From positions 1 to 37,458 of the forward strand of contig JAQICJ010000212.1 of the NCBI GenBank assembly GCA_027858615.1: a stretch of DNA of 37,458 bases. Direction: 5' to 3'. Made by a program: the position numbers and the translations under genes. Positions 10,135 to 22,714 of the stretch are shown piece by piece. This DNA is from Deltaproteobacteria bacterium. Lineage in GTDB: Bacteria; Myxococcota_A; Polyangia; HGW-17. The notes beneath the pieces were generated by a model that ran no database searches, was not told where the DNA came from, and saw only the letters and a list, made by a program, of their open reading frames with translations. Numbering within the stretch: position 1 is the first letter of the stretch; the number at the start of each line of letters is the position of its first letter.

Positions 10135-12510
10135 TTATTCCGGATCAATATCTGAGTTAGGACCATCAGGATCGTCTCTGCTTGAATCTTCATAAAACCA
10201 GGCAAAGTGAACTCTCATTGAGTTTGTGCCACAGCCGGCGTCATCAGAAGTAACATCAGCTCCCTTAATTTTGAGACGAAACATTTTTCCTCCCAAATTT
10301 CCTGATCTGAAGACTCTTTCTTTTTCTTCGGAAGTACTTACAAATCTGTAAATTGAGGTCCACAGACATATTCCTCCTGATGGAATGCATTCTTCAAGAG
10401 AAAAATTGATATTATCAATTGCCGTTCCATTTTCATGTCGTTTGTCGTACCAGGTAATTACAGCTTTTATTATATCTGTATTGGAAGGGAATGTATTGGA
10501 ATTATAAAGGTATTTGTAATAAACTTCTCCATCGTCAATACAAGTACTCAAGCTTCCCCATCCCCATGGACTATCAAGGCCATACGCATCCCAACGTCTC
10601 ATTTTCAATCGGCCTCCACCCCAAAGATTGTCAAAATCTGAATCGGGTTGACCTGTACTTGGAGAATATGCTCGATCGCCCATTAGAAGTAAATGAGCAT
10701 AGAGTTTTCCTGGATTTTCCATGGCATTACTATATTTATATTTGTAAAAATCCATCAAGTTAGCAGCTCCGGCAGTAACGGTTGGTGTTGCATAACTGGT
10801 ACCACACACAGGATTTTGATAAGGAAAGATGTCAAATGCATAGTTGTTATTAGAAGCCACAGAAAATCTATAGTTTCTACAGGCTGGAGCCATTATATCT
10901 ATTATTGTTCTACCTCTTCCTTCGCTTGTTGTACCTCCGCGAGATGTATTTGGATATATGAATCCATATCTTACTTCATCCTCAGTATTTTGATCAGTTT
11001 GTATTCTTGGTGTTGTTCCTGGAGTAGTAGTTCCTCCAACTACAAAAACTCCCATTGCAGATCCGGGAGAATCTATTCTGCAATTGGTATATGAACTATG
11101 TCCGTCATTGCCCGCTGCATAAATTATTGGAATTCCGGCTTCAAACACTGTATTGGCATCTCGGGAAAGAGAGTCAGTTCCGGTACAAGTAATATCAGTA
11201 CTTGCTGCTTCAATAGACATGCTTAATAAATGTGGATTATAAGAGATTATTTCATCAAAAGCATCGTCAATTAAACCATCTCCATTACTGCCTCCACAAC
11301 CAGTAGAATAATCATTATGAGCTCTCCATAATTTTAGAGCAGAATTGCGAGAAAAACCGCTATATTGTCGTTGATCTATTGCTGAAGGAATATTAATGTC
11401 ATCTTGTCCTTGGGTAATATCTCCCGCCGCAATTCCTGCGACAACTGTAGCATGTTCTGAGCTTGTAGAAGGAAAATTTGTTACACCAGAACACTCTGGA
11501 CTATAAGAATAGAATGGCCAAATCCCTGATCTGTGGCAATGACAATTTCTTCGTAATGCAATTCTGCTGTTTCCATTGGCATCGTTAAAACCCGGGTGTT
11601 CATCATTGTAACTGCTATGCTCCAGAATACCTATGTTGATTCTGTTAAAATAGCCTTTATTACCAAGGTATTCGGCAGTGTACTCATCATCCATAAACTG
11701 CACATAATCAGAACCAGATGTTTCAGTGATCATTTGAGTTCCCCTGCTGATTTCAATTCCAGAAAGATGATTTTCATTCAGAATTCCTGAATGATTTATT
11801 CTGGAAACACTTGGATGAGTGGAAAGGCTGATAATTTGATTGCTGGTGAGAATAGCGTCAAGACTAAAAAGATTAAGATTAGCTTTAATAATAGATCCCC
11901 CGAGATTTGTTATCTGTTTTTGGATGGGGATGCTGACTTGGCGGACTTCTTCCTGTTGGGTCAAAAGATGCTCGTTTCTGACCAGTTGCCTGTCTTCAAA
12001 AGTATTGACTTCGCCAAGCGCTATTGATTCTTCCATCCGGTAGATCAAGGGTTTATAGCTTAATGGCGGTTCAAAATTAACATGGACGTAAAAGGTGGCA
12101 TCCTGGCTTGCGGTACTCATCATCTGTTCCAATCCCGGGGAAATAATTGGAGCACTGTTGTAGTTGCGCGGGTAACCTCTTTGTCCTGTGGCAATCAGAT
12201 CGTCAAGTTCATCTTGAGCCAGGGGGCGGCGTTCAATTGTTGAAATGCCTGAAAAGACTATTTCATTACCGTTTTCGTCTACGGAGATCTGTTCTCCGCT
12301 GACATAGCGCCGACCGTTTATGTCGTCCTTGACTTCCTGAAAAATAATCCCCCTTGGGGTAAAGCCATCTTGCATGGGATGGTTGTACGGTGTTTGGGTT
12401 TGAGGAGGGGAGGAGTTGGATTGGGAGGAGACAGGATTCATTTTGAGATCCTCGGGTTGGTTGTCCGGGGAAGGCTGAGGATCACAACCAATTAAAAAAA
12501 TCAGAATCAA
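10135..12510 (-). CDS. Secreted subtilisin-like (S8) serine protease lipoprotein
   Basis: The frame from TTG 12510 gives 791 aa. A short hydrophobic stretch ends in L-I-G-C (Cys9), a lipobox, then a Pro/Ser/Gln-rich linker (10-50), a propeptide-like domain (about 135-245) and an S8 catalytic domain (about 285-590). His353 is in E-H-A-T-V-V-A-G, the oxyanion Asn468 in Y-A-A-G-N-D, and Ser572 in C-G-T-S-Y-A-T-P. Where the catalytic Asp is expected the sequence reads I-G-I-L-E (Glu297). The last 190 residues are beta-rich. TTG 12510 has no Shine-Dalgarno; ATG 12587 has GGAGGTGG and a promoter, but ten CAGT repeats between them leave it out of frame by two bases. The likely full product in the ON state begins M-F-S-F-K-S-L-F, passes through S-Q-S-V repeats, and enters F-K-F-Y-A-L-I-L-I-F-L-I-G-C. 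Confidence 0.85.
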   Translation of the reverse strand: MILIFLIGCDPQPSPDNQPEDLKMNPVSSQSNSSPPQTQTPYNHPMQDGFTPRGIIFQEVKDDINGRRYVSGEQISVDENGNEIVFSGISTIERRPLAQDELDDLIATGQRGYPRNYNSAPIISPGLEQMMSTASQDATFYVHVNFEPPLSYKPLIYRMEESIALGEVNTFEDRQLVRNEHLLTQQEEVRQVSIPIQKQITNLGGSIIKANLNLFSLDAILTSNQIISLSTHPSVSRINHSGILNENHLSGIEISRGTQMITETSGSDYVQFMDDEYTAEYLGNKGYFNRINIGILEHSSYNDEHPGFNDANGNSRIALRRNCHCHRSGIWPFYSYSPECSGVTNFPSTSSEHATVVAGIAAGDITQGQDDINIPSAIDQRQYSGFSRNSALKLWRAHNDYSTGCGGSNGDGLIDDAFDEIISYNPHLLSMSIEAASTDITCTGTDSLSRDANTVFEAGIPIIYAAGNDGHSSYTNCRIDSPGSAMGVFVVGGTTTPGTTPRIQTDQNTEDEVRYGFIYPNTSRGGTTSEGRGRTIIDIMAPACRNYRFSVASNNNYAFDIFPYQNPVCGTSYATPTVTAGAANLMDFYKYKYSNAMENPGKLYAHLLLMGDRAYSPSTGQPDSDFDNLWGGGRLKMRRWDAYGLDSPWGWGSLSTCIDDGEVYYKYLYNSNTFPSNTDIIKAVITWYDKRHENGTAIDNINFSLEECIPSGGICLWTSIYRFVSTSEEKERVFRSGNLGGKMFRLKIKGADVTSDDAGCGTNSMRVHFAWFYEDSSRDDPDGPNSDIDPE

Positions 12511-12587
12511 GGCATAAAACTTGAACTGACTGACTGACTGACTGACTGACTGACTGACTGACTGAATAAAGATTTAAAAGAAAACAT
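12507..12587 (-). CDS. 26-codon out-of-frame leader ORF through the CAGT repeats
   Basis: This is what the well-supported ATG actually encodes at the present repeat number. It begins M-F-S-F-K-S-L-F, continues in S-Q-S-V units, and stops at TGA 12509-12507. That stop overlaps the TTG (12510-12508) of the protease frame as TTGA, so weak reinitiation could still yield some protease. With 8 or 11 CAGT copies this reading frame would be continuous with the protease. Confidence 0.6.
   Translation of the reverse strand: MFSFKSLFSQSVSQSVSQSVSSSFMP
12525..12564 (-). repeat. Tetranucleotide tract (CAGT)10 inside the protease 5' coding region
   Basis: Ten uninterrupted copies of CAGT on the minus strand (ACTG on the plus). 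Distance from ATG 12587 to the protease frame is 37 + 4n bases, which is divisible by three for n = 8 or 11 but not for n = 10. Such tracts change length by slipped-strand mispairing. Confidence 0.97.
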
Positions 12588-12633
12588 AACCACCTCCAAC
12601 ACGGGCTAAAATGATAAAATTCCAATATAAGAA

Positions 12634-12661
12634 ATTATAGCCCCTGATATTTATTATGCAA
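12634..12661 (-). promoter_or_regulatory. Promoter of the subtilase operon
   Basis: On the minus strand TTGCAT (12661-12656) and a perfect TATAAT (12639-12634) are separated by 16 bp. The predicted start near 12627 gives a leader of about 40 nt, with GGAGGTGG ending 3-4 bases before ATG 12587. Confidence 0.6.
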
Positions 12662-22676: not shown

Positions 22677-22690
22677 TTTCAGTTGTTTTT

Positions 22691-22714
22691 TTGTTGTTGT
22701 TGTTGTTGTTGTTG
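22691..22714. repeat. (TTG)8 microsatellite in the PP2C 3' region
   Basis: Eight TTG copies 15 bp after the phosphatase stop, followed by a small TGGGCA/TGCCCA hairpin (22713-22732). Being trinucleotide and non-coding, length change would not shift a frame. Confidence 0.95.

Follow-up and report, generated by a model that had tools for sequence, protein, structure and literature searches.

A CAGT repeat between start codon and signal peptide as a candidate translational switch of a subtilase lipoprotein in Myxococcota

Described repeat-mediated switches and the present locus

Most known cases of repeat-mediated phase variation come from host-adapted pathogens, for which immune pressure is the usual explanation. 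Judged by analogy, the closest functional parallel of the putative protease described here is NalP (AspA) of Neisseria meningitidis, a phase-variable subtilisin-like autotransporter lipoprotein (PMC5472700). Both are S8 subtilases with an N-terminal lipobox, and a simple repeat lies within the coding region of each. The NalP tract is poly-C, whereas the tract reported here consists of CAGT units and precedes the signal-peptide core, and NalP has a C-terminal autotransporter barrel, whereas PF00082 was the only domain found in our protease.

The closest sequence parallel of the tract occurs in Haemophilus influenzae, whose tetranucleotide contingency loci include AGTC tracts that follow closely on the start codon (PMC2651432). 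These share with our locus the repeat necklace (AGTC = CAGT), the site just inside the open reading frame (ORF), the frame logic, and a hydrophilic, uncharged peptide of the S-Q-S-V type. However, the H. influenzae loci belong to a pathogen and specify LPS glycosyltransferases, methyltransferases, and iron receptors, with a Type III methyltransferase downstream of the AGTC tract in the mod locus, whereas an S8 subtilase follows the tract in the environmental lineage studied here. In addition, the sampled part of our genome is otherwise almost tract-free, unlike that of H. influenzae. Because it has neither an autotransporter domain nor a methyltransferase, our protease belongs to neither of these gene families.

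Phase variation within the same phylum is represented by the yellow/tan variation of Myxococcus xanthus (Furusawa et al. 2011, as cited in PMC8538405). A literature search, in which subscription journals were thinly covered, returned no paper joining "phase-variable" and Myxococcota. To our knowledge, the yellow/tan switch has not been ascribed to simple repeats.

The tract, the start codon, and the reading frames

The window is the whole stretch of DNA that was analysed, 37,458 nucleotides of contig JAQICJ010000212.1 (assembly GCA_027858615.1). Its relevant features are as follows.

12634..12661, minus strand: candidate promoter TTGCAT-16-TATAAT with a weak -35 box, from the sequence and its conservation in a paralogue on contig C122 of the same genome
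12590..12597, minus strand: Shine-Dalgarno (SD) sequence GGAGGTGG, from the sequence, identical in the C122 paralogue
12585..12587, minus strand: ATG start codon, out of the protease frame at n = 10, from its position, the SD sequence, and conservation in C122
12507..12587, minus strand: 26-codon OFF-state frame MFSFKSLF(SQSV)3SSSFMP*, from translation
12526..12565, minus strand: (CAGT)10 tract, the proposed switch, from direct reading and TRF (100% matches)
12484-12486, minus strand: lipobox Cys codon of the signal peptide ...QFKFYALILIFLIGC, from translation
10135..12573, minus strand: open frame of the S8 subtilase lipoprotein, 812 codons from stop to stop, from translation, Pfam, and purifying selection in comparison with C122
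9376..10122, minus strand: downstream Cys-rich lipoprotein with a LINC lipobox, from the sequence

Read on the minus strand, the SD sequence is followed by the ATG at 12587, TTTTCTTTTAAATCTTTATT, ten CAGT units (12565-12526), TCAAGTTTTATGCC, and the protease frame, which begins LILIFLIGCDPQ... As the CAGT unit is not a multiple of three and sits between the start codon and the ORF, the copy number n sets the frame. The distance from the ATG to the protease frame is 37 + 4n, which equals 77 at n = 10 and gives the 26-codon product in the sequence as assembled. Varying n in silico yielded the full-length product at n = 2, 5, 8, 11, and 14, and short peptides otherwise. The preliminary description had reported the ten perfect copies between the ATG and the protease frame, this spacing and its consequences (including an in-frame start at n = 8 or 11), and an SD sequence with the ATG at 12587 upstream of the tract. 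We reproduced all of these and place the SD sequence at 12597-12590. Its "good promoter" held only in part: the TATAAT -10 box is perfect, but TTGCAT matches only 3/6 positions of the -35 consensus. A promoter consensus scan did not list the TTGCAT-16-TATAAT pair; both boxes are nevertheless kept in the C122 paralogue.

The period-4 run around the tract spans 41 bp (12525-12565, minus strand); among 60 copies of the window simulated with a first-order Markov model, the longest such run was 14 bp. A search for the 20-mer (CAGT)5 found no second site with five CAGT units in the 3.67-Mb assembly. Besides the tract, the 308 kb sampled from the window's genome (G000) contain one frame-shifting simple sequence repeat (SSR) with a unit of at least 4, located in an intergenic region, and the genome is thus not generally tract-rich. 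The window also contains an imperfect, frame-keeping GTT repeat of ~11 copies (22682-22714) at the start of a 110-aa plus-strand frame.

The tract is very probably a translational contingency locus for slipped-strand phase variation of a lipoprotein-type S8 subtilase. Slipped-strand mispairing would add or remove CAGT units in the stretch that separates the start codon from the signal-peptide core. For n = 2 mod 3 (8, 11), the ATG would read MFSFKSLF(SQSV)x-SQFKFYALILIFLIGC, and the protease would be exported and lipidated (ON), whereas with n = 10 translation would end after 26 codons (OFF). A different outcome could be envisaged from the TGA of the OFF-state product, which overlaps the protease-frame TTG at 12510 (TTGA, 12507-12510) both at n = 10 and in C122: stop-start coupling with this leader TGA might produce the protease constitutively from the TTG. 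Such a product would start with MILIFLIGC, an unworkable signal peptide of nine residues lacking a charged n-region, and neither the orthologue in genome G004 (see below) nor the other tracts show such an overlap; constitutive expression by this route is therefore highly unlikely.

The protease and its copies in the same genome

The protease ORF comprises 791 codons without a lesion and matches PF00082 (Peptidase_S8) with 53.7 bits against a cut-off of 21.8 (E=2.6e-14, Pfam). Subtilisins were among the solved structures matched by the profile of the protease family. H353, N468, and S572 are conserved; at the acid position of the triad, the window copy has Glu297 and homologues have either Asp or Glu. 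Protease activity is likely from these features, although not certain because the catalytic Asp is Glu297 in the window copy. Export, surface location, and proteolysis are predicted properties, surface exposure being predicted from the LIGC lipobox in the protease frame. AlphaFold, given four sequences, produced a model of low quality (mean pLDDT 35.5). The downstream Cys-rich lipoprotein is the probable operon partner of the protease, and a 25% identical paralogue of it follows the C122 protease copy.

The C122 paralogue is 91% identical to the window copy over the first 409 bp and shares its promoter, SD sequence, and ATG, but has (CAGT)2 and a lead-in that is 4 bp shorter. Since near-identical copies thus carry two and ten units behind the same promoter, SD sequence, and ATG, the tract changes length. 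Like the window copy, the paralogue is out of frame, and the two share one OFF frame (1 in 3 by chance); a large internal deletion also breaks the frame of the paralogue (G000:C122:5382-6006, L012). Comparison of the two copies gave dN/dS values of 0.062/0.314 for the N-terminus and 0.092/0.483 for the C-terminus, about 0.2 in the protease frame, and thus purifying selection on a protein frame out of reach of the SD-linked start. A third C-terminal fragment of the protease lies at a contig edge (G000:C62:26-109, 93% identical over 28 residues), and the genome may therefore hold another, unassembled copy.

Tracts in homologues across the phylum

Homologues were collected by a class search and a phylum-wide profile search, using one genome per species, all consensus assemblies; the phylum was assigned to Myxococcota from two named relatives. 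Searching the genome contigs with the protease protein alone gave no match, and closer alignment matched G004 and G196. The G004 orthologue (JAFGWM010000016.1; same family, other genus) has (CCAT)5 between the ATG and the signal peptide, is out of frame, and would be in frame at n = 1, 4, or 7. The N-terminus could be read in 29 homologues, and in 14 of these a simple repeat separates the start codon from the signal-peptide core. In addition to (CAGT)10 and (CCAT)5, these are tracts with longer units ((CTCGGTT)8, (AGAAGCA)4, (GCCTCTC)6, (GGAAGCA)6, (CTCAT)5, and (CGTCT)5) and shorter units ((CGCA)4, (CTCG)5, C11, G9, (TC)8, and (CT)8). The units are mutually unrelated, and none of the 14 is a multiple of three. 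In 11 of these 14, the SD-linked start does not match the protease frame, a share close to the 2/3 that random sampling of a switch would give; the three in-frame cases are G221, G515, and a G128 copy that is truncated. For G130, the start, a GTG, is assigned with less certainty. Most ORFs behind the tracts stay open.

Independent assemblies thus have out-of-frame tracts at the same site, and the 41-bp tract of the window would fit inside ordinary short reads. Although the genome is a 312-contig draft whose read type is unknown, an assembly error that hides a fixed, in-frame repeat number is therefore the least probable of the explanations considered.

Repeat-free homologues mostly start in frame upstream of the signal peptide. 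An in-frame start downstream of the tract position in repeat-free homologues, which the preliminary description named as evidence against switching, was not found; both statements except two copies in G383 (L085 and L106, on G383:C817 and C27), which lack an in-frame ATG start. L085 has 2.3 copies of the heptamer TCAAAAG behind an out-of-frame ATG, and this could be a tract that is just emerging or has shrunk. The tandem paralogues L097/L108 (G357:C18) differ from each other: in one, C11 follows an out-of-frame start; the other starts in frame and is tract-free. In L091 (G469:C529), ~6 copies of a 14-bp unit, TTCACCGGAGCTCC, each with a GGAG, lie directly 5' of the homologue ATG, some 150-235 bases inside the open frame of the protease. 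This repeat is possibly a different expression switch in the same protease family. L090 (G398:C174) has a poly-G9 inside the protease coding region (GGG motif before TIVDL, reverse-strand ~2649), where a second switch might lie.

Several genomes have protease copies from which large internal stretches or catalytic parts are missing: C122 (L012), G004:C57 (L019, without residues 324-417 and with a frame change), G129:C98 (L031), G128:C287 (L025), and G450:C626 (L109). G353 is also broken, as is probably G408, which has a probable second frameshift further downstream. The G450 copy was considered as a second copy with another tract length and rejected as a broken fragment in unrelated DNA. Copies with large deletions may reflect ordinary decay, assembly faults, or the selected loss of an over-active protease. 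As several copies are broken (C122, G004, G353, G128, and C98 of G129), part of the overall pattern could be decay, and the window protease might itself be a young pseudogene in which the tract fixed a frameshift, like the C122 copy with its frame-breaking deletion and the shortened G004 copy. Such a history is very improbable for the window copy, given its lesion-free ORF and dN/dS, the long intact ORFs of tract homologues elsewhere, and the in-frame copies of G221 and G515.

Enrichment, turnover, and probable selection for switching

In each of the 29 homologues, a 150-bp segment was positioned manually at the hydrophobic core of the signal peptide. Against an expectation of 0.18, 14 tracts were observed in these segments (Poisson P about 3e-22, a guide only, because the homologues are related). 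The background consisted of 851 kb taken elsewhere in these genomes and loci. It contained 57 SSRs, of which 35 were frame-shifting (A/T runs of 9 for the most part) and 22 kept the frame; units of 3, 6, or 9 thus make up 0/14 of the repeats in the segments vs. 22/57 elsewhere (Fisher P=0.003). With broader segments derived from ORF and profile boundaries, tracts were found in 12/36, and those of G004 and G353, both split genes, were recovered by hand. None of 19 control subtilases from the same genomes has a tract, and no such SSR occurs elsewhere in 60 kb. In the protein tree, tract presence requires about 10 changes; well-supported branches force at least seven of these, and the units of sister tips are unrelated to each other.

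Neutral repeat expansion in a tolerant, low-complexity n-region of the signal peptide, with no selected switching, would accommodate the free turnover of units between relatives, as hydrophilic low-complexity peptides are tolerated in n-regions. However, neutral expansion should keep the frame in coding DNA, yet all 14 tracts are frame-shifting, most SD-linked starts are out of frame while most downstream ORFs stay open, and other subtilases of the same genomes are tract-free. We therefore regard it as improbable. The contingency reading of the preliminary description gains strong support from homologues with different frame-shifting repeats at the same position and from an out-of-frame ORF that is intact and constrained. 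We accept it because units turn over at a fixed site, are never divisible by three, and precede ORFs that mostly stay open, a pattern that is predicted by selection for switching and not by neutral expansion or decay. The repeated gain and loss of unrelated tracts at one site implies selection for a switchable protease. It is likely, with somewhat less assurance than for the window tract itself, that one secreted-subtilase family is a preferred target of phase variation phylum-wide, with at least seven tract gains or losses at one site pointing to strong fluctuating selection.

What is new here is the comparative evidence, namely the unrelated tracts at the same site in homologues across the phylum, which suggests that evolution keeps rebuilding a protease switch. 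Contingency logic would thus operate in mostly uncultured environmental bacteria, in a single protease family and through independently evolved tracts at one spot. These independent tracts provide replicated evidence, from sequence only, that selection favours a switch over a fixed state, and the driving pressure, be it phage, predation, or kin or community conflict, becomes a directly testable question.
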